In this document: positions 32,696-62,618 of the stretch, piece after piece
How positions within the stretch are numbered: the stretch's first letter is position 1
Layout: each line of letters starts with the position of its first letter
Assembly: GCA_017509255.1 (NCBI GenBank)
Contig: JAFWQA010000037.1
Coordinates: 35,992 to 99,991 of the forward strand
DNA length: 64,000 bases
From: Clostridia bacterium
GTDB lineage: Bacteria; Bacillota; Clostridia; Christensenellales; Aristaeellaceae
Reading direction: 5' to 3'
Made by a program: the position numbers and the translations under genes
The notes under the pieces: model-generated
What the model was told of the DNA's origin: nothing
Database searches by the model: none
What the model saw: only the letters and a program-made list of their open reading frames with translations

Positions 32696-32952
32696 ATATA
32701 TATAATTGACTATAGAATCTGCACTCTCTGCATACAACAATACATTTCTTCTACTTTCTGACAAACAGCTAGGCTATCCGGAGAATGCTGAATCAGATAG
32801 CATAGTGCGAAAAGGCGGGTTTGGTACACTATAAGCTGAAAAAGTTGTTTGTCGGCTAATGCTGGTGAAGGAAACAAGCAGCACGATTTTGAATAATACT
32901 TTTATACTATTTTTTGCTTCTACCATCCTTTATTATGATTCATGGAAGGACT

Positions 32953-36021: not shown

Positions 36022-36135
36022 AAAAGATTATTTGTTCAAAAGATGCATGCCATTAATCATATCCGTATACTACTGCTAAAATCAAAGCATTGGAAATAAA
36101 AGCAATTCTCGCTTAACTGAAAATAAGGATGTAAA

Positions 36136-36981
36136 ATGATTTATACAGATAACGACAAAAGAAAAGCAGTTGTTGACATCATGAAGGACATTGGTATAGG
36201 CGTATCTGTAACTCAAAGAATAGGCATGATAAAACAGCCACGGGGCGGATATCTTCCTCCATCGATGTTCAGAGAAATTTATCTGGAATCAGAAGAATAT
36301 CTCTATCCGATAGTTTTGGAACCAGAAGAGCTTTATCCAGAAGAAAACGTTTTTCCTTCTTTAGTTGGAACTGCAGTAGAGTATCTTGGTAAGTTCATGG
36401 CTGGCGTTCCAAAGGAAGAAGCTTTCAGGATATCAATCAAAGGTGCGCGGCGAATCGGAGAAGAAGAGAATGCAGAACAATTGCTAAAGGAGATCCAGAA
36501 CCTTGATGAAAACTCTGTAAAAAGCGCTCTGAAGATCGCTACATATGATACTGCAACAAGGGGAAGAATCAGGGAGGTGATTCCGACTAGAGCCATAAAC
36601 CCTGATAAAAAAACCATCAAGAACGCAAAAATCATGGTAAAGCGTTTTCTTTCTTTTCTGGACAAATACGGCCCTATGGTTCTGAGTGGTTTTAATTTTG
36701 AAGGTGGTTATTCAGAAACAGTGGACAGAGGTGACGCTGACTTTTCAACAGCAGATACTATCTGGGACATGAAGGTCCTCAGAGGAGCAATCACAACAAA
36801 GCATACTCTGCAGCTTCTGATGTATTGGATCATGGGAGAAAGATCAGTTCATCCAGAACTGCATAATATAAAACATCTTGGCATATTCAACCCGCGAAAA
36901 AACCTGGTATATCGTATAAATACTGCAGATATTCCCCCAAAGACTATTCAGCAAGTAGAAAAGAAGGTCATAGAGTACTGA
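36136..36981 (+). CDS. RecB-family PD-(D/E)xK nuclease-like protein
   Basis: 281 aa. The core is RGDADFSTADTIWDMKVL (Asp, then D-x-K of the nuclease site) followed by HTLQLLMYWIMG, which matches the Q-x3-Y motif of RecB/Cas4-type nucleases. An N-terminal ~150-residue domain (PPSMFREIYLESEEYLYP...) is not recognised. AAGGATG precedes the ATG. It sits between the two SF1 helicases with intergenic gaps of 115 and 224 bp, and may belong to either. Confidence 0.65.
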   Translation: MIYTDNDKRKAVVDIMKDIGIGVSVTQRIGMIKQPRGGYLPPSMFREIYLESEEYLYPIVLEPEELYPEENVFPSLVGTAVEYLGKFMAGVPKEEAFRISIKGARRIGEEENAEQLLKEIQNLDENSVKSALKIATYDTATRGRIREVIPTRAINPDKKTIKNAKIMVKRFLSFLDKYGPMVLSGFNFEGGYSETVDRGDADFSTADTIWDMKVLRGAITTKHTLQLLMYWIMGERSVHPELHNIKHLGIFNPRKNLVYRINTADIPPKTIQQVEKKVIEY

Positions 36982-37030
36982 TTCTTATTACAGAAAATGA
37001 GAAGAAAACTCATATAAAACAACTCATTTG

Positions 37031-37059
37031 TTGTCAAATAGAACACATTCGAGTAAAAT
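37031..37059 (+). promoter_or_regulatory. Promoter of the four-gene helicase-methylase operon
   Basis: TTGTCA (37031-37036) and TAAAAT (37054-37059) with a 17-bp spacer, 146 bp before the GTG start of the next gene. Confidence 0.65.
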
Positions 37060-37204
37060 AACATGTAAAGTGCAATTCCTAGGATAATCACGAAAAATGA
37101 TAACGCACAAAAAATTTTACAAAGTAAATGAAATGATTTTTTGTTTGAAATGATAAAGATTAGGAAAAACACAGAATTCCTAAGCTGATTGGAGGTCATC
37201 CCCT

Positions 37205-40200
37205 GTGCAAACCGATAACATGCAGGAACTTGCGCATTCCTTATTTGAATATATCAAGGAAGTCTGTCAGCTTACTCAGCAAAAGGTGCGGGATGTTACA
37301 AAGCAGCCAGGTTATGTTGAGATGCGCAAATTGGATGATCCGTCCTGTATTAAACTTTATAGCAGGGATACGGTAGATGATGCTGCAGAAAATGTAAGCG
37401 ATGTACTGCTCACCTTTCATAAGCCGGACTTTACTCCTTGTCCGACACCGGATGCATCGTTTGAACGGTGGATTTTACCAGGCTGGCACGATTACCGGAA
37501 ACCTTTAGAGCATCGTACTGAAATCGAGTTGCCTAAAGAAGATTCGGAGGGAGAAGAAACAGAATCATCAATAACGGAAGGACAGTTGGCCATTCCTGGC
37601 GCTTTGGACCAGCCTCCGTTACTTGATAATGTGGAAGAGACAAATGAAAAGCAGCCAGAGGTCGAGCTTTTTACGGATGACCCGGAACGTGTGGCAAAAT
37701 ATGAACGATGGGCTGCTATACGTGAAAATTGGGTTGTAAAAGAAAAGCATACAGCACAAATCCGAAATGTATTCAATGATTTATTCGATATTTATAATAT
37801 ATACCGACAGACCCCGGATACTATGGAAATTGACATAGGTAACGGATTCTTGACGGATAAACAGAAACATGATATAAGGCATCCCATTCTTCTTAAAAGA
37901 GTAAATCTGTCTCTTGACCCCGTAAATAATGTAATTACCGTTACAGATTCAGAAGATCCTGCTTCTTTTAATTTGCCTTTATTCAGCGAAATGGAGAAAG
38001 TAAACCTTGATATAATAAGTTCTTTGGAAAAGCTTGCAGAAGATAAAAACATACATCCGCTGGATCATCATGAAGGTAGAGATTTACTAAAAGCTGTTGC
38101 GCATCAGTTAGATTCCAGCAGCTGTTATATAGATGAAGGTGAAGAAGCTGTACGTAGCGAAGAACGTATTATCATTCGTTGGGAACCTTATATTATTCTA
38201 CGCAAACAGCCCGATGGGACTGTTAAGGCGGTCCAATCAATCCTGGATGCTCTGGCAGCAGGTGCAGAGATCCCTGACTCTCTAACAGGGATCCTTGGTG
38301 GATTTAATAATCTCTCTATCGCTTCCAGTACAGAAAATATCGGGAATGTTTTTGGAGGAGGGGATGTAGACGTTGGCATCTGGGATGAACCAAAACTGGA
38401 GCCTTTGGAGGATGAAGAAATCCTTCTTCCGAAACCAGCCAACAGAGAACAGATGCAGATCGTACGGCAGATAGAGCATTCTCCTGCAGTCCTTGTGCAG
38501 GGACCGCCCGGCACAGGTAAAACTCATACGATTGCTAATTTGCTGGGGCATTTCCTTGCACAGGGAAAGACTGTTCTAGTGACAAGCCATACATCAAAAG
38601 CATTGACGGTTCTAAAAGAAAAAGTTCCTACGGATCTGCAAGCCTTATGCGTTGCTGTCTTCGGAGACAACAGGGCAGATATGGAGGAAGCTGTCAATAC
38701 GATTATTGAGCGAACAAGTATTACCCCCCTGGAAGTACAGATCGCTAAGATAAATAAACTTCGGCAGCAGAGACAAGAAACGCTTGATAAGCTTAATAAA
38801 GCTCGTGATCTGGTATATGCTATCCGTCATAAAGAATTTGAACCGATTGTATATGAAGGCGATAGTTGGTCGCCGTCAAAAGCTGCTGAATACGTTTCTC
38901 AACGGGAAAGCTTAATTGGCCTGATACCTGGGACTGTTCGCAAAAACGCTCCATTCCCGTTAGATCAGCAGGAACTCGAATGGCTGTATGCTAGCAATGC
39001 CTCACTGTCAGCTAATGAAGAAGAAGAACTTGCAATGAATCTTCCGGATGCTGAGGACCTTATGACACCTGAGCAGATGGCAGATGGCATTGATTTGCTG
39101 AACAGGCTGAATATTATGCTCCAGAGCATGAACAGCGGAGGTCATATCAATCTGTCCTGGCAACAGAATCGATACGCTGTTGTTGATTTGTTTTCTGATC
39201 GGGTTTTTGCCAAGCAGGGAGAATATACTGCTGAAAAAGCACTTCGCAGTTCTTTATCTGTTTATGAAGAGCCTATTCCTGATTGGGCTGTGTTTGCTAT
39301 GTCAGATGGCGCAGACAATGGCTTGGCAAAAAAACGTTGGGAACAAATGCTCAACCTGATTGAAGAAGCATACATTAAAGGAGAGCCAGTTCTAGAAAAG
39401 CAGCTGAAGCATCCGATTAAGATCAATTCTTCTTCCTATACTGCGCTGCTGCCTCATTATAAGACACTTCTCGAAGAAGCAGAAAAAAATGGACGTGTCA
39501 AAGTAGGCGTATTTACAAAAAAAGAAAAAAAGGAAGCTTTGGGTGCTATTACTATTGGTGGGAACATGCCGGAATCTCTTGAGGATATCAAAGATATTTT
39601 GGCTTATTTTGAACTGTTGAATCTTCGCGAACAATTGGAATCATTATGGGATAATCTGATTGCTTCTCATGGTGGACAAAAGTTTTCAGATCTCGGTGAT
39701 GATCCGGAACGTATTTGCCATCAACAGTCCAAGACAATAGATTTTTGGTTAAACTGGGACAAAGATTCAAGAAATGAATTATATAAACAGGCTCAGAAAG
39801 CGGGCATTGGCGATATAGTGCTGAAACCTATTTCCAACTTTATTGTCCCGACAAATGACAAAGCGGCTAAGATTCTCAAACATATTAAAGAACAGCTTAT
39901 TCCTGCGGTGGATTTGCTTCATCTTGTAAATTCATTGTATGTCTATACACATAGCAAAGAAAACACATTGGAGCTTTTGATGGATTATCAAAAGTCCACA
40001 ATCTGCAGCAGCATTCAAAACGCAATCGATGAAGCTTCGACTGAACGGTATGAACATGCGATTGAAAGCTTAAAAACGCTGTTGAAAAAAACAGAGGTCC
40101 AAATACATCGTGAAGAATTGCTCAAGCGGATTGCAGTCAGTGCTCCGGAATGGGCAGAAGCTATCAGAAGTCGCAACGGATGCCATGGATATGTAATGGT

Positions 40201-42289
40201 GCCGGAGGATATTCAGACGGCATGGAAGGTACGTCAACTTGCATATGCAGTAGATGAAATCACATCTACTTCACTTTCAGAAGCCGAGAAACAAGTTTTT
40301 GATTTTACTATTCAGTACAGGAAGGATACTGAAAAACTTGCAACAGCACAGGCTTGGTGTCATCTTCAGAAACGTGTGGATGTGAATCCACAGATCCGAA
40401 TGTCTTTGAATGCGTGGAAACAGACTATAGCAAAAATAGGAAAGGGTACCGGCAAAAAAGCTCCTGCGTTACTCAAGGAAGCTCGAAAATTGATGAAGGA
40501 ATGTCAAAAGGCCGTGCCGGCATGGATCATGCCGGTATCCGGTGTGATGAATTCAATCGATCCTGCTACAACAAAATTTGATGTAGTTATCGTAGACGAG
40601 GCAAGTCAATCTGACATTACAGCATCTGTAATTCTTTACTTGGGTAAAAAAATCATTATCGTCGGTGATGATGAACAGGTCAGTCCGCTGGCTGTTGGAA
40701 TTGATGAAACCAAAATGCAGAATTTGATGAATATGCTCATCAAGGACAAGATTCCCAATTCACATCTGTGGGATACCAGAACATCTCTATATGATATTGC
40801 TGCCCAGGTTTATCAACCGCTTATGCTTCGCGAGCATTTCCGCTGTGTGCCGGATATCATCGGATACAGCAATATGCTCTCCTACAATGGGAAAATCAAA
40901 CCTCTGCGTGAAGCGAGCAGTTCTCATCTCAAGACCGCTACGATATCCTATCGTGTGCATGGTATGAGAAGAGGCCGTTCCAAAACCAATCTGGAAGAAG
41001 CAGATGCAATAGTTGCTCTTATTACTGCCTGCCTGGAACAACCTGAATATTCCAATAAAACGATCGGAGTCATTTCCATGGTCGGAGAAGATCAGGCCAA
41101 ACTGATCAACAGAAAACTACTGGAAGCTTTACCACTCGCTGAGCATGAAAAGCATCGCATTCTTTGCGGAAATGCTTCAAATTTTCAGGGTGATGAAAGG
41201 GATGTTATTTTCCTGTCCCTTGTAGACAGTAACGATTCAGACGGGCCACTCTCTATGGCATCAGGCGAAGGACAGGGTTCAAACGGAAAGCCCATGAAAC
41301 AACGTTACAACGTTGCTGTCAGTCGCGCCAAAGATCAGCTCTGGGTTGTTCATTCCTTGGATATGCATGCTGATCTGAAGCCCGGCGATATGCGACGCAG
41401 ACTATTGGAGTATGCATCAGATCCTCATGCTATCACGACGAAAATCCAGGGGATAGAAGAAGATTCCGATTCGCCTTTTGAGGCTGAGGTTGCAACTGCT
41501 CTTGTTGCACAAGGATATCATATTGTTCAACAATGGCAAGTGGGCGCATACCGTATTGATATGATCGCGATATGCGGAAAAAATCGTATTGCCATTGAGT
41601 GTGACGGAGAACAGTGGCATAGCGGAGCGGAAAAGATACGTGAGGATATGGAGAGGCAGTCGATTCTCGAAAGGCTCGGATGGAAATTCATTCGCATACG
41701 CGGCAGTGAATACTACAAGGGAAAGGAACAGACTATTTCTCGTGTCATCACCGAACTGAATCAGTATGGGATCATTCCGGAGACTTCATTTGTTAATACA
41801 GATACGGATGAGAGCGATTCTCTGCTGCAAAAGGTAAAACATAGAGCTATGCAGTTGATGGAGAATAATGGTTATATGGATGCTCCACCTCCGCCTGCTC
41901 CAATCAGTGAAACGATCTCTTTGCCGCTTAAGGATACTGTTGAAGACTTACCGTATATATCTGAAACATTACAAGAAGAAGCATCAATTCCGGATGATAT
42001 TGTTGAAACCTCTTTACAAATGCCGGAACCAGTTGCTCCGCAAAAGGAACCTGTTCAAATATCAATGAATTTACCGGATGATGATTTATTGGCTGCATTC
42101 CAGAGGTCTGGGTTTATCTGTATTGATAACAGGAAAAAATCTGGTATTCTCTGGGTTATCTATGACAGCACAAGAGCAAACCGATTCGCTGAAATCTCAC
42201 GCAGATACAACCTGACATCAGCCCTTGAAAGGCGCGGCGCTATTGCAACGAATGGTGCACCTGCATGGCGTGTAAAGACATCAAAATAA
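37205..42289 (+). CDS. Giant SF1 helicase with DUF559-type nuclease and C-terminal accessory domain
   Basis: 1694 aa, GTG start 9 nt after GGAGG. Residues 1-420 are an unrecognised N-terminal region. Walker A GPPGTGKT begins at 433 and motif II VDEASQSD lies near 1131. The other motifs are IIIVGDDEQVSPLAVG, NFQGDERDVIFLSLV and YNVAVSRAKDQLWVVHS. Residues about 1424-1525 are a DUF559/Vsr-like nuclease (FEAEVATALVAQGYHIVQQW, RIDMIAICGKNRIAIECDGE, LGWKFIRIRGS). The final ~65 residues (SGFICIDNRKKSGILWVIYDS...) form a small domain also seen at the ends of such helicases. Followed after 20 bp by the ssDNA-binding protein, then the PLD helicase and methylase. Confidence 0.8.
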   Translation: MQTDNMQELAHSLFEYIKEVCQLTQQKVRDVTKQPGYVEMRKLDDPSCIKLYSRDTVDDAAENVSDVLLTFHKPDFTPCPTPDASFERWILPGWHDYRKPLEHRTEIELPKEDSEGEETESSITEGQLAIPGALDQPPLLDNVEETNEKQPEVELFTDDPERVAKYERWAAIRENWVVKEKHTAQIRNVFNDLFDIYNIYRQTPDTMEIDIGNGFLTDKQKHDIRHPILLKRVNLSLDPVNNVITVTDSEDPASFNLPLFSEMEKVNLDIISSLEKLAEDKNIHPLDHHEGRDLLKAVAHQLDSSSCYIDEGEEAVRSEERIIIRWEPYIILRKQPDGTVKAVQSILDALAAGAEIPDSLTGILGGFNNLSIASSTENIGNVFGGGDVDVGIWDEPKLEPLEDEEILLPKPANREQMQIVRQIEHSPAVLVQGPPGTGKTHTIANLLGHFLAQGKTVLVTSHTSKALTVLKEKVPTDLQALCVAVFGDNRADMEEAVNTIIERTSITPLEVQIAKINKLRQQRQETLDKLNKARDLVYAIRHKEFEPIVYEGDSWSPSKAAEYVSQRESLIGLIPGTVRKNAPFPLDQQELEWLYASNASLSANEEEELAMNLPDAEDLMTPEQMADGIDLLNRLNIMLQSMNSGGHINLSWQQNRYAVVDLFSDRVFAKQGEYTAEKALRSSLSVYEEPIPDWAVFAMSDGADNGLAKKRWEQMLNLIEEAYIKGEPVLEKQLKHPIKINSSSYTALLPHYKTLLEEAEKNGRVKVGVFTKKEKKEALGAITIGGNMPESLEDIKDILAYFELLNLREQLESLWDNLIASHGGQKFSDLGDDPERICHQQSKTIDFWLNWDKDSRNELYKQAQKAGIGDIVLKPISNFIVPTNDKAAKILKHIKEQLIPAVDLLHLVNSLYVYTHSKENTLELLMDYQKSTICSSIQNAIDEASTERYEHAIESLKTLLKKTEVQIHREELLKRIAVSAPEWAEAIRSRNGCHGYVMVPEDIQTAWKVRQLAYAVDEITSTSLSEAEKQVFDFTIQYRKDTEKLATAQAWCHLQKRVDVNPQIRMSLNAWKQTIAKIGKGTGKKAPALLKEARKLMKECQKAVPAWIMPVSGVMNSIDPATTKFDVVIVDEASQSDITASVILYLGKKIIIVGDDEQVSPLAVGIDETKMQNLMNMLIKDKIPNSHLWDTRTSLYDIAAQVYQPLMLREHFRCVPDIIGYSNMLSYNGKIKPLREASSSHLKTATISYRVHGMRRGRSKTNLEEADAIVALITACLEQPEYSNKTIGVISMVGEDQAKLINRKLLEALPLAEHEKHRILCGNASNFQGDERDVIFLSLVDSNDSDGPLSMASGEGQGSNGKPMKQRYNVAVSRAKDQLWVVHSLDMHADLKPGDMRRRLLEYASDPHAITTKIQGIEEDSDSPFEAEVATALVAQGYHIVQQWQVGAYRIDMIAICGKNRIAIECDGEQWHSGAEKIREDMERQSILERLGWKFIRIRGSEYYKGKEQTISRVITELNQYGIIPETSFVNTDTDESDSLLQKVKHRAMQLMENNGYMDAPPPPAPISETISLPLKDTVEDLPYISETLQEEASIPDDIVETSLQMPEPVAPQKEPVQISMNLPDDDLLAAFQRSGFICIDNRKKSGILWVIYDSTRANRFAEISRRYNLTSALERRGAIATNGAPAWRVKTSK

Positions 42290-42308
42290 CAGAGAGGAGA
42301 AAACGAAA

Positions 42309-42557
42309 ATGCCTAAGGAAGACAATGATCTTAAGTATGAAATTATCAATGAAATCGCGGTCATCTCTGATGATGGAAAGTGGCGTCTGGAACTGAACCG
42401 TATCAGTTGGAATGGCAGGGATCCTAAATATGATTTGCGCAAATGGTCTCCTAATCATGAGAAAATGAGCAAAGGGATCACTCTTTCTGATGATGAAATC
42501 ATCAAACTTGCGGATGCTTTCACAAAAGAAAAAGAGTTTCTTATTCAAGAAAACTAA
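42309..42557 (+). CDS. PC4/YdbC-type single-stranded nucleic-acid-binding protein
   Basis: 82 aa. WRLELNRISWNGRDPKYDLRKWSPNHEKMSKGITLSDDEI is the clear signature of YdbC-like PC4-fold proteins, which dimerise and bind ssDNA. GAGAGGAG precedes the ATG. Its place between two helicase-nucleases suggests it handles the single strands they expose; such a pairing inside a defence operon is not one I recall. Confidence 0.85.
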   Translation: MPKEDNDLKYEIINEIAVISDDGKWRLELNRISWNGRDPKYDLRKWSPNHEKMSKGITLSDDEIIKLADAFTKEKEFLIQEN

Positions 42558-42627
42558 TATGCTAAAACAAGCATGCTTCATGCTTAAGTTTCTCATGTAA
42601 AGCGATAGTGCACAAGGAGACAATGCA

Positions 42628-45600
42628 ATGCCTATTACAAATGATTTGAAATTCTTTACCAATGAACCAGAGCGTGATCTTTACAGTAGATTTGCTACGA
42701 TTTTGAAAAGCAATACGCAGTTTTTTGATGTTCTGGTTGGATATTTCAGAACAAGTGGCTTTTTCAGAATGCATGAAGCCATGGGAGACGTTGATAAAAT
42801 TCGTATCCTTGTCGGGCTGAATGTGGATCGATTTACTGTCAAGCTTATTGATCGTATGAAAGAAGAGGTCAAATATGCCGCCATCTCCGCCAAAGAAGGA
42901 AAAGACATTATTTCGGAAGAAATTGAAAGAGAGTTTGAGCACGCTGAAACTTCTGAAGTAGTGGAAAAAGGCGTGCGTGTCTTTATCGAATGGCTGAAAT
43001 CTGGCAAACTGGAGATGCGAATGTATACAGAGGCACCAATTCATGCAAAAGTATACATTATGCGTAAAGATCCTGACAAGGTTCCAGATACTTTTGGCAG
43101 CGTAATCACCGGATCTAGCAACTTCTCAGAAGCAGGATTATGCAATAATTTGGAATTCAATGTAGAATTGAAGGATGCTGCTGATGTAAAGTTTGCTCTT
43201 GAACGGTTTGAAGCACTGTGGGCAAAGGCAACTGACATTCGTGAAGCATATATCGAAGCTGTGGAAATGAATACTTGGCTGCGAGGTGACATAACGCCCT
43301 ACCAGCTATACCTTAAAACGCTGTATGAATTCTTCAAAGAAGAGATCAATGCCGATAAAGAAAACTTCCAAACACTACTTCCGGAAGGCTATATGCGACT
43401 GCAATACCAGATTGATGCTGTGATGCAGGCCAGGCAAAAGCTGGAAGCCTACAATGGCGTGTTTATTTCTGACGTTGTTGGCTTGGGTAAGACATATATT
43501 TGTGCAATGCTTGCCAATAGCTTCAACCGCAATACTTATAAGTTGATTATCTGTCCGCCTGTGCTTGTAGACTATTGGAGAAGCGTCATGCAGGAATTTG
43601 ATGTATCACGCTGTGATGTAGAATCTCTTGGCAAATTAGATAAAATCATTGCCAAGGGGACAGACAAATACCAGTACGTCTTTGTGGATGAAGCCCACCG
43701 CTTCCGCAACAGTGGTACAGAGAGTTTTACGGAATTACATCAGATTTGTCACGGTAAAAAGGTGATTCTGATTTCTGCAACACCGATAAACAACTATACA
43801 AGCGACATAGAGAATCAGTTGTACCTTTTCCAGAACAAGCAGAGCGGCACCATAAACGGCATTCGCAATCTGGATGGTTTTTTCCGTGCCCTTGATTCAG
43901 ATCTGCACAAGCATATCAAGGGCAGTCCTGAATACATGGCTCAACTGCGGGCAAACTCTGAGATCATTCGTGACAGGCTTTTGCGGGAAATCATGATTCG
44001 ACGCACACGTAGTGAGATAGCAAAATATTACGAAACCGATCTGACAAAACAAGGACTGACTTTCCCAAAGGTTGGTAAGCCAGAACCAATCCTATATGCT
44101 TTTGATGACCAAACTGACGAGGCATTCACCGAAACCATTGAGGATATCAAGGCTTTCAAGTATTCGCGCTATACACCTTTGCTGTATCTGAAAGACAAGA
44201 AAAAATATGCCACTTTGTTAGCAGGCCAGCATAACATGGGCGGTTTCATGAAGGGTGTGCTGGTCAAACGCCTGGAAAGCAGCTTTTACGCATTCAGAAA
44301 AACGCTGGGGCGGTTCATCGAATCCTATGAACGATTCATCAAAATGTATAAAACCGGTACTGTCTATGTTGGAAAGTATAAGAATCTGTATGACATGCTG
44401 GATAACGGTGATGATGAAAAGCTCATGTATCTGATAGAGCAGGGCGACTTGTGGAAATTTGATTCCTCAGAGTTTTCTCCTGCCTTCATTCGCGATCTGA
44501 ACTCTGATCTTTCTCAGCTAAGAACCTGGCAGACTCTTTGGGATATGATCAAGGTTGATCCAAAACTGGTGGAGTTCAAGAGTCAATTGACTGCTAACGC
44601 TGACATCAAAGGCAAAAAGGTCATTGTTTTTACAGAGTCCATGGAAACCGCCGAATACCTTTATGACAATCTGTGCACATTGTATAGTGGAAGGGTGGTA
44701 TATTACAGTGGCAAGAGTGGCGCTGGTGCAAAGATTGACATTGAAGATAGCTTCAATCCCAAAAACAAGGGCAAAAACAATGATAAATATGATCTGCTCA
44801 TTACTACAGATATCCTAGCAGAAGGTATCAATCTGCACAGAGCAAACATATTGATCAACTACGACCTCCCATGGAATCCGACAAGAATCATGCAGCGAGT
44901 TGGACGTATCAATCGAGTGGGTACTGAGCATGAAAGGATTTTCGTTTTCAACTTCTTCCCAACAGCTCAAAGCAAACGTCAAATGCCGTTGGAGGAACGC
45001 ATTCTTGAGAAACTGCAAGCCTTCCATGATACACTTGGCGAAGATATCAAATATCTGTCAGACGAGGAAGAAGTATCACCCAAGAAACTGTTTAGCGATC
45101 TGAGCAAGGATCTGGATGACGATGAGGAAAGCACCAACCCTGAATTAGCTTACCTTGCTGTTATCCGTCAAATTCGCGATAACGATCCAAAACTCTTTGA
45201 AACCGTCAAGCGTCTACCCAAAAAGTGCAAGGCGGGTAGGCATACAGACTTGATTCAGAATAGCGAAACAATTAGCTTTATTCGCAAAGGCGCACTAAAA
45301 ACCTTCTATTGCTGTGACGGCTCTGCCTCAACTCAGATGACCTTCATGGAAGCAATCAAGTTGATCGAGGCAACTCCTGATGAAAAACAGGTTACCATAC
45401 ATAGTGATTATTATGATCAGCTTTCTGCCAATGAAACTGCTTTTGATAATATGGTGGTGGAAGACGAACAGGTCAGTACGGAAAAACCGATGATTACAGG
45501 CAATGACGCGAAAGTGATCCGAATGTTGAAAGCTATCAAAGATGAGCCACGTCTGACAGATGATCAGGAAGGCACGATTGAACTGTTGATACAGCGGTGG

Positions 45601-45804
45601 GAGAATGGTGAAATCCCCGCCAAGATTTCCAAGGATGTTGTAAAGAAAATCACCATCACTACAGATGTGCTAGAACTGTATTATGAAATCTTGAAGCTGG
45701 TTCCTGAAACTTATTTGGCAGAGCAAAAAAACATCAAGAGCCTGGTTGATGGCGAAAAGCAAGTGATTCTCAGTTGTTATCTGGAAGGCGGGACATGCAA
45801 ATGA
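42628..45804 (+). CDS. PLD-family nuclease fused to SNF2-type helicase
   Basis: 1058 aa. The N-terminal ~190 residues are a phospholipase-D-like nuclease: H139 and K141 in APIHAKVYIM, then ITGSSNFSEAG at about 160-170. The SF2/SNF2 motor follows, with Walker A VVGLGKT (K288), DEAH box FVDEAHRFRN (D354-H357), ISATPINN, VFTESMETAEYL, DILAEGINLHRANILINYDLPWNPTRIMQRVGRINR (motifs V-VI). The C-terminal third is unrecognised. The downstream methylase overlaps its last codons. Together they look like an ATP-dependent restriction-modification pair in which this protein translocates and cuts. It is not a DISARM set, since no DUF1998 gene is present. Confidence 0.82.
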   Translation: MPITNDLKFFTNEPERDLYSRFATILKSNTQFFDVLVGYFRTSGFFRMHEAMGDVDKIRILVGLNVDRFTVKLIDRMKEEVKYAAISAKEGKDIISEEIEREFEHAETSEVVEKGVRVFIEWLKSGKLEMRMYTEAPIHAKVYIMRKDPDKVPDTFGSVITGSSNFSEAGLCNNLEFNVELKDAADVKFALERFEALWAKATDIREAYIEAVEMNTWLRGDITPYQLYLKTLYEFFKEEINADKENFQTLLPEGYMRLQYQIDAVMQARQKLEAYNGVFISDVVGLGKTYICAMLANSFNRNTYKLIICPPVLVDYWRSVMQEFDVSRCDVESLGKLDKIIAKGTDKYQYVFVDEAHRFRNSGTESFTELHQICHGKKVILISATPINNYTSDIENQLYLFQNKQSGTINGIRNLDGFFRALDSDLHKHIKGSPEYMAQLRANSEIIRDRLLREIMIRRTRSEIAKYYETDLTKQGLTFPKVGKPEPILYAFDDQTDEAFTETIEDIKAFKYSRYTPLLYLKDKKKYATLLAGQHNMGGFMKGVLVKRLESSFYAFRKTLGRFIESYERFIKMYKTGTVYVGKYKNLYDMLDNGDDEKLMYLIEQGDLWKFDSSEFSPAFIRDLNSDLSQLRTWQTLWDMIKVDPKLVEFKSQLTANADIKGKKVIVFTESMETAEYLYDNLCTLYSGRVVYYSGKSGAGAKIDIEDSFNPKNKGKNNDKYDLLITTDILAEGINLHRANILINYDLPWNPTRIMQRVGRINRVGTEHERIFVFNFFPTAQSKRQMPLEERILEKLQAFHDTLGEDIKYLSDEEEVSPKKLFSDLSKDLDDDEESTNPELAYLAVIRQIRDNDPKLFETVKRLPKKCKAGRHTDLIQNSETISFIRKGALKTFYCCDGSASTQMTFMEAIKLIEATPDEKQVTIHSDYYDQLSANETAFDNMVVEDEQVSTEKPMITGNDAKVIRMLKAIKDEPRLTDDQEGTIELLIQRWENGEIPAKISKDVVKKITITTDVLELYYEILKLVPETYLAEQKNIKSLVDGEKQVILSCYLEGGTCK

Positions 45805-48800
45805 GTGCAGTAGTTGATAAAATTGAAAGTATCTTGACAGATGCATATTCTGTTCCCAATTACGTTGATCTGATTCAGGAAATACTGAATGATGTACACA
45901 TTGTCGCACCGAATAGTCCACGTAAGGAATACACCAATTTTTCTTCTCACATAGAGAGCTATACTCATGTAGGTACCTATACCAGCCCTGATGGTAAGAA
46001 AATTATTGTGCTGGCTGTGGAACTGAAAAACCAGACTTATGTGGAAAACTCAAGAAGCACGCAGCGAAGCTATGCGAAGAAGCTTATTGAAAATGCCAAT
46101 GCGGATGCAGCGCTGGTTGCATTCTATACTCCTGGTGATCCTCGCTGGCGTTTGTCGTTTGTTCGTCTGGATTATGAAATTAAAATCGAAAACGGAAAAC
46201 TCAAAAACCAAGAAAACATGACCCCGGCGCGACGGTTTTCCTTCTTGGTTGGCAAGGATGAACCGTGTCATACCGCAATTGAACGTTTTCGCTTGTTCCT
46301 GGAAAAACATAATTCTTATCCATCACTAGATGATTTGGAAAATGCTTTTAGTGTGGAAGCAGTTACAAAAGAATTCTTTGGATTATACTGCGAGAAATTT
46401 CATCAATTACGTGAAGCTCTCGAAAAGAATACTGATTTTGTGGAAGAAGCAAAGCTGCACAATTACACATCTGCTCAGTTCGCAAAGAAGCTAATGGGGC
46501 AGATAGTCTTTCTATATTTTCTGCAGAAAAAGGGCTGGCTGGGCGTCAGTGCATGGCCGCGCCAGTTATCTGAAACAGAATACAAAACTGCTTTCTATGC
46601 AAGAGGTACAAAATCCCGCGAACTGATTCCGATGGTATATGCAAAAGCGGATGAAAATACCTATCGTATCAATGCTACTGCCTTAAATCGACTTTCAGAT
46701 GAAGATGAAACCTTCTTAAGCACGTGCGTACGTGGTGAGCCTTGGGGTACAGGACCACATAATTTCATGCGCAAACTCTTTGAACAGTCAGAAAAAAAGA
46801 GCGCGAACTTCTATGATGATTATCTGGAACCATTATTTTACGAAGCGCTGAATGTCAATCGTGGAGAACAAGGATATGATCCTGCATTACATTGTCGCAT
46901 TCCTTTCTTAAGTGGTGGTTTGTTCGAACCGATTGACGGTTATGATTGGAAGCATAATCGCTTTGCAATTCCCAATAATATTTTTTCTAATAAAAAAGAT
47001 CATAAGGATAGGTTGGCTGATGGCATACTGGATATTTTTGATCGCTACAACTTCACCATGAGCGAGGACGAACCTCTTGAACGTGAAGTAGCAATTGATC
47101 CTGAAATGCTGGGGAAGGTGTTTGAAAACCTGCTGGATGTGAATGACCGCAAGGGTAAAGGGGCATTCTATACACCGCGTGAAATCGTACATTACATGTG
47201 TCAGGAAAGTTTGATCAATTACTTGACTAATTCGATGAATGTCTCTGAGGCAGCAATCCGTGATTTTATTCTCTATGGCGATTTCATGAAGGATGAAGAT
47301 GCAAGCGTTTTGCAGCGTGCTAAAAATGGTGACTCTTATGATCTGTGGGTGTCAGAAGAGTTATATGCGTTGAATTCCAATGGATCCATAAAAACAGACC
47401 GTATGATTGAATTAGATAAGGCGTTGCAGAATGTTCGCGTTGCTGATCCTGCTGTGGGTTCCGGTGCTTTTCCTCTTGGAATGTTAAATGAGATTGTTCG
47501 TGCACGGCAAAACATTACAACCTACCTAGATATTACACAAAAAATAATCGATCCAAAGGGAGCATCAAGAGAAATTCGTTATAGGCGTATCAATGACCGC
47601 AGTGCCCATCAATTGAAATACGACACTATTCGCAATTGCATTTTTGCCGTGGATATCGAGCCTTCTGCTGTGGACATCGCTCAATTACGTCTTTGGCTTG
47701 CACTTGTAATTGACGACGAAATTGATCCTAATGCTGCTACTGCACTGGAAGGACACAGAAATCCCCTGCCCTTGCCCAACCTGGAATGCAATATACTATG
47801 TGGGAACAGTTTGATTGATGAATTTGAAGGCATTAAGCTGATAAATGAAAGTGATATCATCCGCACTGCAAACAAAGAGATGCAGGTAAATATTTATCAG
47901 AGTGCCTTTGATGCAACGCTGCTTAGATTAATTGAAAAGCAGCAAGAGTTATTCAAATGCACTAGCACTGATAATAAATACCAACTCTTGCAGGATATTG
48001 AAGCACTACGTGATGATGTAATAATGTCACAGTTGCGCGGTACAGCTACGGCTGAACAAATACAAAAATATGAAGAAACAAAAGGATTATCATCCAAACC
48101 CTTTGTGCTTTGGCAACTGGATTTTGCAAGGGTCTTCAGGGAAAAGGGTGGGTTTGATATTATTATTGGAAATCCTCCATACATACAATTACAAAAAACG
48201 ATTAATGAGGAAACTGGTGAAAAACTTGGTGATCAGTATGAATCCCTCAGATTTGCTTCTTATACAAAAACAGGTGATATATATTGCCTTTTCTATGAAA
48301 AGGGACTGTGGTTACTTCATGATAAAGGAGTACTTACTTTCATAACTAGTAATAAATGGATGCGGGCGGGTTATGGCGAAAAGCTACGCGGCTTATTTGC
48401 AAAGCAAACAAATCCCATCGCTTTAATAGACTTTGCCGGACAAAAAGTATTTGAGTCTGCTACGGTTGATGTAAACATATTGACCTTCACTAAAGAAAAA
48501 AACGCGGGAAAAACAGAAGCTTGTATCATTAAGGAAAAGTGTACAGGCTATATGAGCGTTTATTTTAAGCAACATAGCACAACTTCTTCTTTCATTGGTT
48601 CTTCAGCATGGAGTATTTTGTCGAATGTAGAAGCTAGTATCCAAGAAAAAATAAAGAAAGTTGGTCTTCCACTTGCACAATGGCAAGTAAATATTTATCG
48701 TGGAATTCTAACTGGTTACAACCAAGCTTTTATTATTGACGATGGCATCAAAGAACAATTGATAAAAGAAGACCCTCGATCGGCTGAATTAATACGACCG

Positions 48801-49442
48801 ATTTTGAGAGGCCGTGATATACAACGCTTTGCTTATAACTATGCAAATCTATGGGTGATAAACGTCCACAATGGAATCAAAGAGCTTGGTATACCGCCTA
48901 TCGATATTGATGATTATCCCGCAATAAAAGCGCATCTTGATCAATTCTATCCCAAACTAGCAATTAGAGCTGATCGTGGAGTGACTCCTTACAATCTTCG
49001 TAACTGTGCTTATTTGAACGATTTATCTATGCAAAAGATTGTATGGGGAGAAATATCCGATAAGCCTAAATTTGCCATAGATATCAACGGTGAGTATATA
49101 CCAGAAGCAACTACATTTATGATGACCGGAGATCATCTTAAATATTTGCTTTGTATCCTCAATTCTACTTTTTCTGAGTATTATTTTGCTAAGATTGGTA
49201 CAACTACAGGCATGGGAACATTGAGATGGAAAAAATATTTGATAGAAACTCTTCCTATACCGAAAACTTCTGAAAAAGACATATATGAATGCGAACACAT
49301 GCTTGATCTTATTTTAGAGTCTTCAGAAAACGATAGAGCTTTGTATATTCATATGCTAAATGAGACAATTTATAGTATGCTGGGATTCACAGATGAAGAA
49401 ATTGCAGCCATTGAAGAGATTGTTGCTCAAGGAGCACATTAA
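45795..49442 (+). CDS. Eco57I-type N6-adenine DNA methylase with invertible specificity domain
   Basis: 1215 aa. SAM motif I DPAVGSGAF starts at 551 and catalytic motif IV NPPYIQ at 793. The N-terminal ~150 residues (IIVLAVELKNQTYVENSRSTQR, AALVAFYTPGDPRW) are typical of large Eco57I/type IIG-like proteins; a nuclease role for them is only possible. Residues from ~920 on form the TaqI-like target-recognition domain (WQVNIYRGILTGYNQAF, LIRPILRGRDIQRF, TTGMGTLRWKKYLIETLPIPK). That last part lies inside an invertible segment. ATG 45795 has GGAAGG 6 nt upstream; ATG 45801 (ATGA overlap) is equally plausible. Confidence 0.85.
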   Translation: MQMSAVVDKIESILTDAYSVPNYVDLIQEILNDVHIVAPNSPRKEYTNFSSHIESYTHVGTYTSPDGKKIIVLAVELKNQTYVENSRSTQRSYAKKLIENANADAALVAFYTPGDPRWRLSFVRLDYEIKIENGKLKNQENMTPARRFSFLVGKDEPCHTAIERFRLFLEKHNSYPSLDDLENAFSVEAVTKEFFGLYCEKFHQLREALEKNTDFVEEAKLHNYTSAQFAKKLMGQIVFLYFLQKKGWLGVSAWPRQLSETEYKTAFYARGTKSRELIPMVYAKADENTYRINATALNRLSDEDETFLSTCVRGEPWGTGPHNFMRKLFEQSEKKSANFYDDYLEPLFYEALNVNRGEQGYDPALHCRIPFLSGGLFEPIDGYDWKHNRFAIPNNIFSNKKDHKDRLADGILDIFDRYNFTMSEDEPLEREVAIDPEMLGKVFENLLDVNDRKGKGAFYTPREIVHYMCQESLINYLTNSMNVSEAAIRDFILYGDFMKDEDASVLQRAKNGDSYDLWVSEELYALNSNGSIKTDRMIELDKALQNVRVADPAVGSGAFPLGMLNEIVRARQNITTYLDITQKIIDPKGASREIRYRRINDRSAHQLKYDTIRNCIFAVDIEPSAVDIAQLRLWLALVIDDEIDPNAATALEGHRNPLPLPNLECNILCGNSLIDEFEGIKLINESDIIRTANKEMQVNIYQSAFDATLLRLIEKQQELFKCTSTDNKYQLLQDIEALRDDVIMSQLRGTATAEQIQKYEETKGLSSKPFVLWQLDFARVFREKGGFDIIIGNPPYIQLQKTINEETGEKLGDQYESLRFASYTKTGDIYCLFYEKGLWLLHDKGVLTFITSNKWMRAGYGEKLRGLFAKQTNPIALIDFAGQKVFESATVDVNILTFTKEKNAGKTEACIIKEKCTGYMSVYFKQHSTTSSFIGSSAWSILSNVEASIQEKIKKVGLPLAQWQVNIYRGILTGYNQAFIIDDGIKEQLIKEDPRSAELIRPILRGRDIQRFAYNYANLWVINVHNGIKELGIPPIDIDDYPAIKAHLDQFYPKLAIRADRGVTPYNLRNCAYLNDLSMQKIVWGEISDKPKFAIDINGEYIPEATTFMMTGDHLKYLLCILNSTFSEYYFAKIGTTTGMGTLRWKKYLIETLPIPKTSEKDIYECEHMLDLILESSENDRALYIHMLNETIYSMLGFTDEEIAAIEEIVAQGAH
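48554..48579 (+). repeat. Left inversion site inside the methylase gene
   Basis: A 26-bp segment beginning GAGCGTTTATTTTAAGC. It matches, inverted, 22 of 26 positions of 50338-50363, with 16 of the first 17 identical. It encodes SVYFKQHS, the point where the specificity domain starts. Confidence 0.75.
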
Positions 49443-49444
49443 AA

Positions 49445-50332
49445 TCATCGAAATGCTTCAGTAGCAAAATCAATAACATATTGTCGTTCCTCTACAGACA
49501 AGCCATAAGCATCGAAAACCAAACTATTAAGTTTATACTCAAGATCTTCGCAATCCTTGCCTTGAGCGATTCGTTCAAGAATTAAAGCAAGTAATTCTTT
49601 GTACGGTTCTTGATCGTGCTCTTGTAGTTTGGGTATTCGAATAGGTTCAAGTGCTTGTACACTTATGATTAGGTCCCCGGTACCTGTCTTAGGAGATTCT
49701 TTCAACAGATAATTTCCCATTATCGAATTCAATACAGCTACAAGATACTCTATACCATCACCAGTTGCAAAACAAGTACTGTCCAAGCAAAGGAGGCCTG
49801 TATTATCATAACTAAAACGCAACTTTGAACCTATACGTTTCCATATTATCTTTTGCCTGCTAAAATCGTTCCAATAATTGATACTATCTTGCGTTTCAAA
49901 CCACATATTGTTTGTTTTCTTTCTTGCTTTAACTTCACGACCTGCAATTATATACCTTTTTCCGCTCTGTTCTAATCGTTCAATTCCATATGATAGCAAG
50001 TATTTTTTGATGGCGGGATAATCATCAATGTTATAATGCCGACTTGGGAATGTACAAATAAGCCATAAATTTGCAAAATCGTATGAGAAGCGCTGTATAT
50101 CACGACCTCTTAAAATTGGTCGAATTATCTCAGCAGATTTGGGGTCTTCTGCAATAAGTGCATTCTTTTGTTCTGTTGTTATAATAAAAGCATCGTTGAA
50201 TCCTGTTTTAATACCAAAGTTAATACGTATGTTCCAATCACAGAGTGGTACACCTTTTTCTTTTATCTTCTGCTTGATTCTAGCTTCGACTGGATTATAA
50301 ATAATCCATGCAGTATCGTAATCCAAGTTCAT
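49445..50332 (-). CDS. Silent alternative methylase specificity domain (inverted cassette)
   Basis: 295 codons from the first ATG, but homology starts upstream. The same frame is open back to 50392 and reads SVYIKRYGIF before MNLDYDTAWIIYNPVEARIKQKIKEKGVPL. This aligns with SVYFKQHS...SSAWSILSNVEASIQEKIKKVGLPL of the methylase. Later blocks also match (FGIKTGFNDAFII, AEIIRPILRGRDIQRFSYDFANLWLI, LKESPKTGTGDLIISVQALEPIRIP). It lacks methylase motifs and a proper start, and its stop is 2 bp from the methylase stop, tail to tail. After inversion it would replace the current target-recognition domain in frame. Confidence 0.85.
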   Translation of the reverse strand: MNLDYDTAWIIYNPVEARIKQKIKEKGVPLCDWNIRINFGIKTGFNDAFIITTEQKNALIAEDPKSAEIIRPILRGRDIQRFSYDFANLWLICTFPSRHYNIDDYPAIKKYLLSYGIERLEQSGKRYIIAGREVKARKKTNNMWFETQDSINYWNDFSRQKIIWKRIGSKLRFSYDNTGLLCLDSTCFATGDGIEYLVAVLNSIMGNYLLKESPKTGTGDLIISVQALEPIRIPKLQEHDQEPYKELLALILERIAQGKDCEDLEYKLNSLVFDAYGLSVEERQYVIDFATEAFR

Positions 50333-50337
50333 AAAGA

Positions 50338-50363
50338 TGCCATATCGCTTAATATAAACGCTC
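50338..50363 (-). repeat. Right inversion site at the head of the silent cassette
   Basis: On the minus strand it begins GAGCGTTTATATTAAGC, pairing with the site at 48554-48579. The two copies bound a 1.8-kb segment holding both specificity domains. Confidence 0.75.
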
Positions 50364-50388
50364 CTTATAAATAAGCAAAAAGGAGCGT
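50358..50388 (+). promoter_or_regulatory. Inverted repeat over the invertase ribosome site
   Basis: ACGCTCCTT (50358-50366) and AAGGAGCGT (50380-50388) are complementary. The right arm contains the AGGAG ribosome site of the invertase and is also a partial third copy of the inversion-site head (AGGAGCGTATAT). It could hide the ribosome site in mRNA, or serve as an extra recombinase site. Confidence 0.6.
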
Positions 50389-50394
50389 ATATCT

Positions 50395-51000
50395 ATGAAT
50401 TATGGCTACATTCGTGTCAGTAGTGACAAACAGACAGTGGAGAACCAACGGTTTGAAATCAAGCGCTTTGCTGAGCAACAAGACATTCATATCAATGGAT
50501 GGATCGAGGAAACCATCAGTGGCACCAAGAACTATGACAAAAGAGAATTAGGAAAGTTGTTAAATAAGGTAACGAAAGGGGATTTAATCATCTGCGCAGA
50601 ATTAAGCCGCTTGGGACGTAACTTATTTATGATTATGGAGATACTGAATATCTGCATGACAAAAGAATGCAAGGTTTGGACAATCAAAGATAACTACCGC
50701 TTGGGTGATGACATTCAAAGTAAGGTACTTGCTTTTGCCTTTGGTCTGTCAGCAGAAATTGAAAGAAATCTAATCAGTCAAAGAACTAAAGAAGCTTTAG
50801 CTCGAAAAAAGGCAGAAGGAGTTGTTCTTGGACGACCAAAGGGAAGAAAGTCAGAACATGTCAAACTATCAGGAAAAGAAGAAATAGTAAGAGATTTACG
50901 GAAACAAGGTTTATCCCAACGCCAAATTGCGGTTATTTACAAAGTGAACAGAATGACTGTTGCTAAGTTTATTAAGGAACATGGCTTGGATGTTTTATGA
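50395..51000 (+). CDS. Mpi-family serine DNA invertase
   Basis: 201 aa serine recombinase. Catalytic Ser9 lies in YGYIRVSSDKQTVENQRFEI, followed by LIICAELSRLGRNLFMIMEIL, AFGLSAEIERNLISQRTKEAL and ARKKAEGVVLGRPKGRK. A C-terminal helix-turn-helix is present (EIVRDLRKQGLSQRQIAVIYKVNRMTVAKFI). It matches the Mpi 'master invertase' type, which can act on several loci. It lies 32 bp outside the right inversion site and does not itself invert. AGGAG is 9 nt before the ATG. Confidence 0.9.
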   Translation: MNYGYIRVSSDKQTVENQRFEIKRFAEQQDIHINGWIEETISGTKNYDKRELGKLLNKVTKGDLIICAELSRLGRNLFMIMEILNICMTKECKVWTIKDNYRLGDDIQSKVLAFAFGLSAEIERNLISQRTKEALARKKAEGVVLGRPKGRKSEHVKLSGKEEIVRDLRKQGLSQRQIAVIYKVNRMTVAKFIKEHGLDVL

Positions 51001-57388: not shown

Positions 57389-58465
57389 TTAAGCGTTTTC
57401 GGCTTCGAACTTCTTCATGAAGGCGATGAGCTTCCGGACGCCTTCCATGGGCATGGCGTTGTAGATGCTGGCGCGCATGCCGCCCACGGAGCGGTGGCCC
57501 TTCAGGTTGACCAGGCCTTCGGCAGCGGCGGCCTTGACGAAGGCGGCATCCTTATCGGCATCGCCGGTGATGAAGGTCACGTTCATGCGGCTGCGGTACT
57601 TGGGCTGAGCGGTGGTCTTGAACAGCTTGCTGTTGTCCAGGAACTCATACAGGGCGGCAGCCTTTTCAATGTTGACCTTTTCCATGGCTTCCACGCCGCC
57701 GACGGACTTGAGCCACTCGAAGGTGAGGCCGGCCAGATAGATGCCCCAGGTGTTGGGGGTGTTGTACATGCTCTGCTTTTCGACCTGGACCTGCCAGTTG
57801 AGCAGCTTGGGGCAGATATCCATGGTGCGGCCGAGCAGGTCCTTGCGGACGATCAGGAGGCACAGGCCGGAGGGGCCGATGTTCTTCTGCGCGCCGGCGT
57901 AGATCACGCCGTACTTGCTGACGTCCATGACCTCGGAGAGGATCATGGAGCTGGCGTCGCACACGATGGGAGCCTTGCACTTGGGCAGCTCGACGAAGCG
58001 GGTGCCGTAGATGGTGTTGTTCTGGGTGATGTGGACATAGTCCGCGTCATCGTCAAAGGTGATGGCGTTCACATCCGGAACATAGGTGTAGGTATCTTCA
58101 CGGCTGGAGGCGACCACGTTGACCTGCCCGTAGCGCTTGCCTTCCTCGGCGGCCAGGTGGGCGAAGTTGCCGGAATCGATGTAGTCAGCCTTTTTGTTGA
58201 CCATCAGGTTCAGCGGGACAGCGGAGAACTGCTGGGTGGCGCCGCCCTGCAGGAACACGACCTCGTAATCCTCGGGGATGTTCATCAGGTCACGGATATC
58301 GGCGACGGTTTTATCGTAAATATCGGTGTACATCTTGCTGCGATGGGACATTTCCATCACGGACATACCGGTGTCACCGTAGATCAGCAAATCTTTCTGT
58401 GCCTTTTCGAGAACAGGCAGTGCGAGCTGGGAAGGTCCCGGGGAAAAGTTGTATACGCGTTCCAT
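57389..58465 (-). CDS. serC: Phosphoserine aminotransferase
   Basis: 358 aa from ATG 58465 after GAAGGAGG; the longer reading would include the leader. Converts 3-phosphohydroxypyruvate and glutamate to phosphoserine. Class-V aminotransferase fold, with N-terminal YNFSPGPSQLALPVLEKAQ, FLQGGATQQF, PLP-binding Lys in GVIYAGAQKNIGPSG and C-terminal HRSVGGMRASIYNAMP. Complete and typical in length. Confidence 0.95.
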   Translation of the reverse strand: MERVYNFSPGPSQLALPVLEKAQKDLLIYGDTGMSVMEMSHRSKMYTDIYDKTVADIRDLMNIPEDYEVVFLQGGATQQFSAVPLNLMVNKKADYIDSGNFAHLAAEEGKRYGQVNVVASSREDTYTYVPDVNAITFDDDADYVHITQNNTIYGTRFVELPKCKAPIVCDASSMILSEVMDVSKYGVIYAGAQKNIGPSGLCLLIVRKDLLGRTMDICPKLLNWQVQVEKQSMYNTPNTWGIYLAGLTFEWLKSVGGVEAMEKVNIEKAAALYEFLDNSKLFKTTAQPKYRSRMNVTFITGDADKDAAFVKAAAAEGLVNLKGHRSVGGMRASIYNAMPMEGVRKLIAFMKKFEAENA

Positions 58466-58490
58466 CTTGAGTGTTCCTCCTTCAGTGGTG

Positions 58491-58508
58491 CGGGACAAAT
58501 ATGTCCCG
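58491..58508 (-). promoter_or_regulatory. Palindromic hairpin in the serC leader
   Basis: CGGGACA (58491-58497) and TGTCCCG (58502-58508) form a perfect 7-bp stem in the 5' untranslated region, between promoter and ribosome site. It may be an operator or an mRNA-stabilising hairpin. Confidence 0.5.
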
Positions 58509-58533
58509 GTGGGATAAAATTGACCATGCACGT

Positions 58534-58561
58534 ATTATAGCTCTTTTTCAGAAAAAAGCAA
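58534..58561 (-). promoter_or_regulatory. Promoter of serC
   Basis: On the minus strand TTGCTT (58561-58556) and TATAAT (58539-58534) with a 16-bp spacer. Confidence 0.7.
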
Positions 58562-58645
58562 GAGGAAAAAAGAATATATATTGTTTTTTTTCGGGAGAAG
58601 GCTTTTGGTCCGTCCTTCACGAGAGAGAAGACTCATCAAGAGGAT

Positions 58646-58750
58646 AAAAAATAGCGATGGCTCAATCGTTTTTACCGACGATGAGAGCCCCACTCCAGTG
58701 AAAACAAACTGGCGGAACTCTCAAGTCGATAAAATCAAGAGTATCGCTAC
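58646..58750 (-). ncRNA. Unidentified structured small RNA, copy A
   Basis: About 105 nt, transcribed on the minus strand and ending in UUUUUU (58651-58646). A closing helix AGCGAU/AUCGCU (58748-58743 with 58658-58653) encloses three hairpins: ACUCU/AGAGU, CCAGU/ACUGG and GGCUC/GAGCC, giving a cloverleaf-like shape. No open reading frame of note. It differs from copy B mainly in hairpin loops while the stems are kept. The family is not known to me. Confidence 0.7.
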
Positions 58751-58756
58751 ATGAAA

Positions 58757-58785
58757 AATATACCCGAAGAAATGACTGATGTCAA
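58757..58785 (-). promoter_or_regulatory. Consensus promoter of small RNA copy A
   Basis: Minus-strand TTGACA (58785-58780), 17-bp spacer, TATATT (58762-58757). The predicted start is about 7 nt on, just before the closing helix. Confidence 0.75.
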
Positions 58786-58850
58786 TATCTGATCTGTTCA
58801 AACGATATTTGAAGTCGAAGACTGTCTTTTACAAGTGGATGATTCTAGAG

Positions 58851-58953
58851 AAAAAATAGCGATGGCTCTAAAGTATTTCATCGATGAGAGCACCACTCCA
58901 GTAGCTACAAACTGGCGGAACTCTCAAGTCGATAAAATCAAGAGTATCGCTAC
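58851..58953 (-). ncRNA. Unidentified structured small RNA, copy B
   Basis: About 103 nt, same architecture as copy A: AGCGAU/AUCGCU closing helix (58951-58946 with 58863-58858), ACUCU/AGAGU, CCAGU/ACUGG with a changed loop, and a third hairpin rebuilt as GCUCU/AGAGC. Terminal UUUUUU at 58856-58851. It lies 203-205 bp from copy A; between them is ~60 bp of unrelated sequence. Confidence 0.7.
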
Positions 58954-58959
58954 ATGAAA

Positions 58960-58988
58960 AATATATCCGAAGAAATGACTGATGTCAA
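58960..58988 (-). promoter_or_regulatory. Consensus promoter of small RNA copy B
   Basis: Minus-strand TTGACA (58988-58983), 17-bp spacer, TATATT (58965-58960), conserved base for base with the copy A boxes. Confidence 0.75.
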
Positions 58989-59000
58989 TATCTGATCCGT

Positions 59001-59032
59001 AAAAAACAGAGCCTTCCGGGGGGAAGGCTCTG
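59001..59032 (-). terminator. Terminator of the rpoBC operon
   Basis: ACAGAGCCTTCC and GGAAGGCTCTGT form a 12-bp stem (59006-59032). TTTTTT follows on the minus strand (59006-59001). Confidence 0.9.
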
Positions 59033-59048
59033 TTGGGGTTATTGGGAA

Positions 59049-62618
<3,570 letters not shown>

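Follow-up and report, generated by a model that had tools for sequence, protein, structure and literature searches.

Two adjacent, highly similar candidate small-RNA genes between rpoC and serC in a Clostridia bacterium

One complete transcription unit occurs twice in tandem between rpoC and serC in the genome of a Clostridia bacterium of the family Aristaeellaceae (assembly GCA_017509255.1). The two copies are read here as sibling small-RNA genes that arose by duplication of this unit and that would encode trans-acting regulatory RNAs; this joint reading, in which we infer transcription, start site, function and target of both copies, appears reasonably probable. The window, i.e. the whole stretch of DNA that was analysed, comprises 64,000 nucleotides, and all positions refer to it.

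Results

Layout of the locus

Both units lie in the 583-bp gap between rpoC and serC (Table 1). The initial annotation had placed two tandem minus-strand units of about 105 nt at this site, each ending in six U residues; coordinates, parts and both U-runs were as described. The hairpin of the rpoC terminator is located directly upstream of the copy A promoter and separates the units from rpoC. The promoter had been given as TTGACA-N17-TATATT, exactly alike in both copies, and a promoter scan recovered it in each with 11 of 12 consensus bases. These promoters were two of four promoter-like sites found by the scan within 58450-59100, while shuffled versions of the region contained 1.1 sites at ≥9/12 on average; sites with 11-12 of 12 bases numbered 22 in 329,804 bases of the same genome, counted on both strands. 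The start of each RNA was placed at the usual spacing from the -10 box, at the G that is the seventh base past it, and in both copies the closing helix opens with this predicted +1.

Table 1. Features of the rpoC-serC region and their positions in the window
Feature	Position	Strand	Description
rpoC (RNA polymerase beta' subunit)	59049..62618	minus	upstream neighbour
rpoC intrinsic terminator hairpin	59005..59034	minus	13-nt perfect inverted repeat, 4-nt loop, then T6
Copy A promoter	58960..58988	minus	-35 TTGACA 58988-58983, 17-nt spacer, -10 TATATT 58965-58960
Copy A small RNA, 103 nt	58851..58953	minus	predicted +1 G at 58953, rod fold, U6 end
Copy B promoter	58757..58785	minus	-35 TTGACA 58785-58780, 17-nt spacer, -10 TATATT 58762-58757
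Copy B small RNA, 105 nt	58646..58750	minus	predicted +1 G at 58750, rod fold, U6 end
serC ribosome-binding stretch GGAGGAACACTCAAG, tentative target	58466..58480	minus	13/15 complementary to RNA nt 26-40, both copies
serC (phosphoserine transaminase)	57389..58465	minus	next downstream gene

Each copy thus has its own promoter and a closing stem with U6, the stem and the U-run being read directly from the letters. The scanner listed no terminator of the canonical short type here, because the stem that would act as one forms the foot of a hairpin of about 100 nt. A small peptide encoded by the unit was considered and rejected, as inspection by eye revealed just TTG-started frames lacking a Shine-Dalgarno sequence.

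Copies A and B are a closely similar pair of candidate small-RNA genes of the same genome, with about 90% identity. Between them, 7 of 10 bases matched in the block from -50 to -41 and 9-10 of 10 in the blocks closer to the start, while the match fell to 2-4 of 10 farther upstream and to 0-5 of 10 past U6; upstream of about -47 and past U6, similarity is at chance level. The similarity is confined to the stretch from about -47 through U6, and what was repeated is therefore the transcription unit.

Predicted RNA fold

Minimum-energy and centroid folding with ViennaRNA gave one long irregular hairpin, or rod, for both copies, with -42.5 kcal/mol for copy A (103 nt) and -46.4 kcal/mol for copy B (105 nt). 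For stretches of 107 nt the energies were -42.5 (A) and -46.8 kcal/mol (B), with z scores of -5.67 and -7.81, and none of 200 dinucleotide shuffles folded as well for either copy. The pairs of the rod had a mean probability of 0.96 in each copy. A cloverleaf of three hairpins within a closing helix, as originally proposed, was ruled out on energy: the pairs of its first local hairpin had ensemble probabilities of about 1e-9 to 1e-12, and forcing this hairpin cost 13-18 kcal/mol (-24.8 versus -42.5 kcal/mol in copy A and -33.7 versus -46.4 kcal/mol in copy B), copy A also losing its closing helix under the constraint. No tRNA or tmRNA genes were detected in the window by ARAGORN, and the fold is a rod instead of a cloverleaf. 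When growing chains were folded, the first local hairpins were seen until the chain reached about 60-65 nt, the change to the rod fell at about 65-70 nt, and chains of about 70 nt or more gave the rod; the first two of the proposed hairpins may therefore exist briefly, the cloverleaf not being the end state.

So stable and nearly closed a rod, with an upper hairpin and an AG bulge that are identical in both copies, would also suit a decoy or scaffold in which the rod, its small internal loops and the bulge bind a protein and no sequence-specific pairing with mRNA takes place. We regard such a role as unlikely, as the minus strand of the units matched no protein-binding RNA of Rfam at E up to 10 and the 5' arm is conserved beyond the needs of pairing. 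On the other hand, the predicted rod would leave little single-stranded sequence for pairing with mRNA, and this counts against the reading as a trans-acting regulator.

Comparison of the two copies

In an alignment of the copies over 163 columns, differences were found in 2 of the 47 columns that precede the start, in none of the 47 columns of the first half of the transcript, in 13 of the 58 columns of the second half up to U6 and in 8 of 11 columns beyond. The two halves of the transcript differ in their divergence (Fisher p 4.5e-4), which could stem from a constrained 5' arm or from a gene-conversion tract. A replaced segment in the 3' half, 13 nt long in A and 15 nt in B, pairs with the same unchanged 5' arm in both. 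When this segment was shuffled, equal stability was reached in 19 of 1000 cases for A and in 4 of 1000 for B; with an equal number of random edits converting one copy into the other, the folds were as stable in 6 and 32 of 1000 cases. The retained pairing favours a constraint on pairing, as far as a single comparison of two copies can suggest one.

Among the 29 pairs shared by both copies (RNAalifold, two sequences), none had changed on both sides. Of the earlier proposal that structure is under selection, a real but modest part stood, namely that the 3' segment keeps its pairing, whereas compensatory change was lacking. The related statement that stems are conserved while loops vary was correct for the apical loop, in which four bases vary between the copies, but a stretch of the 3' stem varies too. 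An unchanged 5' arm and a 3' arm that drifts yet still pairs fit a functional 5' arm with the 3' arm as cover and terminator.

Distribution of the unit

A model, R1, was built from copies A and B and used alongside blastn. Both searches recovered these two copies, and no further ones, from the genome to which the window belongs, which is 73.9% complete. With R1, this was the only genome to match in samples of 45 genus, 150 family, 391 class and 398 phylum genomes; these samples overlap, and searches over more than 40 genomes use stricter filters. The search of related Clostridia suggested by the initial annotation thus returned its own source alone. The blastn searches gave matches in 2 genomes out of 61 relatives and in 9 out of 396 from the order, own genome included in both counts. 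The other 395 order genomes gave just eight partial matches of 19-40 nt (E 4e-4 to 9e-3) that lacked the unit; one of them, in G039, also appeared in the search of the 61 relatives, and R1 found nothing at these eight loci.

The flanking regions of relatives were also read. rpoC was found in 35 of the 45 genus genomes and serC in 36; the flanks of 29 rpoC genes, one of them just 51 nt long, and 29 regions upstream of serC were read, and the unit was absent from all 58 loci. Two R1 matches at these loci (E 1.1 and 1.7) were judged to be chance. An exact 18-mer of the unit occurred in 26 stretches of the genome collection and an exact 20-mer once in viral contigs, and R1 found nothing at these 27 loci. 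Other patterns gave 0, 0, 0 and 7 hits in viral contigs, the seven showing no match to R1. Phages yielded three weak matches of 26-27 nt, and plasmids yielded no match to the unit. Within the window, besides the two copies, R1 reported the plus-strand self-complement of copy A (E 0.011) and another match at E 1.9. Its own genome carries the unit twice, and none of the other genomes searched yielded it; it is therefore a lineage-restricted sibling pair rather than a widespread new class.

Both genes share a contig in 24 genomes; in 16 of these, serC is located no more than 5 kb downstream from rpoC, and in 15 of these 16 it is on the opposite strand; the rpoC-serC locus has therefore been rearranged in the present genome. 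Downstream of rpoC, four loci of relatives (L049, L050, L058 and L059) contained repeat-like GTCATTCTGAGCAAGGCCGAAGGCCGCGTCGAAGAATCTC-type sequence, by eye an apparently dispersed element.

Occurrence in one genome only, in a rearranged neighbourhood, would also be expected of a non-functional duplicated hairpin or of a mobile-element remnant at the point of rearrangement. This explanation is doubtful: the genome holds just two copies, both with exact promoters, the similarity stops at functional edges, and pairing was kept despite change. The AT-richness of the gap (0.41) is also unexceptional, 12 of 79 gaps being at 0.42 or less.

Candidate targets

Nucleotides 26-40 of the RNA (CUUGAGAGUUCCGCC) complement the stretch GGAGGAACACTCAAG directly before the serC ATG at 13 of 15 positions. 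The siblings might thus repress serC, with these nucleotides pairing from the Shine-Dalgarno sequence up to the start codon and the 5' arm held constant because it is antisense. The complementarity was first spotted by eye and then tested with ungapped scoring. Against serC by itself, a score this high arose in 3 of 1000 shuffled 5' arms and in 11 of 1000 shuffled full RNAs (1 and 4 of 200, respectively, in a smaller run). Among 273 start regions serC ranked second, and first among the 183 with a Shine-Dalgarno match, these regions being a sample from 329,804 of 2,496,757 bases with starts called by a simple script. An excerpt of PMC11878033 further names serC as a direct target of the small RNA GcvB in E. 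coli. However, the best score among the 41 start regions of the window was not unusual, being reached by 171 of 1000 arm shuffles and 90 of 1000 full-RNA shuffles; serC was the top gene of the window in neither ranking, and two genes outscored it with the full RNA.

Energetics also spoke against repression of serC. The pairing is predicted to yield about -17 to -18 kcal/mol, whereas opening nucleotides 26-40 costs 18.3 and 22.1 kcal/mol in the two copies and opening the serC leader another 5.7 kcal/mol; in a nascent chain the opening cost is about 9 kcal/mol, and only such a chain could pay for the pairing. Moreover, a relative without the unit (L107) has a similar serC spacer, GGAGGAACACACATG, and the leader upstream of the serC start resembles those of relatives without the unit. 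The complementarity is a weak lead, since predicted thermodynamics opposes pairing by the finished RNA, and we consider direct repression of serC quite improbable. A second lead concerned the type IIG restriction-methylase gene of the window, in which 45812-45833 (codons 4-11) can pair with RNA nucleotides 6-27 at 21 of 22 positions, three of them G-U. Here the hybrid gains -20.5 kcal/mol against 18.5 kcal/mol for opening the RNA, and 35 of 200 arm shuffles scored as high somewhere in the window. Both targets are leads only.

A short GGGACA...TGTCCC hairpin was observed before the serC Shine-Dalgarno sequence in many of 30 leaders (L090-L119) and is perhaps a conserved control element of serC. 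The units lie on the serC strand, upstream of serC, and end in U-runs, as a pair of cis-acting leaders, riboswitches or attenuators of serC would. This arrangement is nevertheless very unlikely to act in cis: 180 nt separate the end of copy B from the serC start, a TATAAT at 58539-58534 with a weak -35, seen by eye and not listed by the scanner, lies in between, the leader hairpin is common to many relatives without the unit, no riboswitch match was obtained and the rod persists in a predicted read-through transcript.

Elsewhere in the window, the type IIG gene lies on the plus strand within 45795-51000. Next comes an additional TaqI_C specificity piece, inverted and thus on the minus strand (49445-50332), and after it a resolvase-family serine recombinase (50395-51000). 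Inverted repeats span both specificity parts, e.g. 26-nt arms at 48554-48579/50338-50363 (85%) and 93-nt arms (77%), and the region 45795-51000 looks like an invertible, phase-variable specificity cassette. The stretch 32914-49442, with two helicase-nuclease proteins (AAA_11/AAA_12 with MTES_1575), a PDC-S61 match, an HKD+Snf2-type helicase and the type IIG enzyme, is an apparent defence island.

Known RNA families

Rfam 15 gave no matches in the window at the gathering threshold. At E up to 10 two matches appeared, both outside the units and judged to be chance, so that the original remark that the units do not match 6S, SRP, tmRNA, RNase P or common riboswitches holds; riboswitch matches in the units were likewise not found. 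6S RNA (RF00013) is similarly a closed rod with paired ends, but its model has 187 positions as against about 105 nt here, and the predicted fold has no large central bubble. None of the 45 genus genomes matched RF00013, the control being positive in 5 of 14 known genomes; the genus may lack 6S RNA, or its 6S RNA may be too diverged for the model under strict filters. The hfq family was also matched by none of the 45 genomes, again with the control positive in 5 of 14. The small bacterial SRP RNA (4.5S) is a single hairpin of about 100 nt and in this resembles the predicted RNAs, which however lack an Rfam match to it even at E up to 10.

Discussion

The pair is a new orphan small RNA, while adjacent sibling small RNAs are themselves of an already known kind. 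No published description of this RNA was found, which is weak evidence of absence as the literature searches were partly off-topic. According to excerpts of PMC9973317, NgncR_162 and NgncR_163 of Neisseria are encoded by adjacent, similar genes with shared conserved parts (78% identity), form three stem-loops with single-stranded seed regions, bind Hfq and, as known siblings, regulate metabolism, amino-acid genes included, through pairing at ribosome-binding sites. As far as these excerpts go, the likeness lies in two similar small-RNA genes side by side; the RNAs here differ in forming one closed rod, in a genus without a match to the Hfq family. The same excerpts describe LhrC-type multicopy small RNAs of Listeria, with several homologous genes per genome, a likeness that was followed through Rfam only.

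The unit most likely encodes a regulatory RNA. One complete unit, from about -47 to U6, would have been duplicated to give two sibling genes, each transcribed from its own housekeeping-type promoter into an RNA whose first base would probably be the one opening the closing helix and whose end would be the U-run that follows this helix. During synthesis the first two local hairpins are predicted to prevail until the chain reaches about 70 nt, when the 3' half would displace them and the whole RNA would zip into the rod. The 5' arm may carry the functional sequence and the 3' arm may serve as cover and terminator, and we infer a trans-acting regulator that works without Hfq, through base pairing with mRNA or binding of a protein. 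A more elaborate version is hardly probable: the 5' arm would be used twice, during transcription as a local hairpin or as an antisense sequence to serC, perhaps also to the type IIG start, and would later be shut into the rod by a fast-evolving 3' arm, making the recent RNA pair a self-limiting, transcription-coupled regulator.

If the units are transcribed, they would be a young, lineage-restricted small-RNA pair in a group in which 45 genomes gave no match to the Hfq family or to 6S RNA, and they would present a case of a duplicated RNA in which one arm stays constant and the other drifts.
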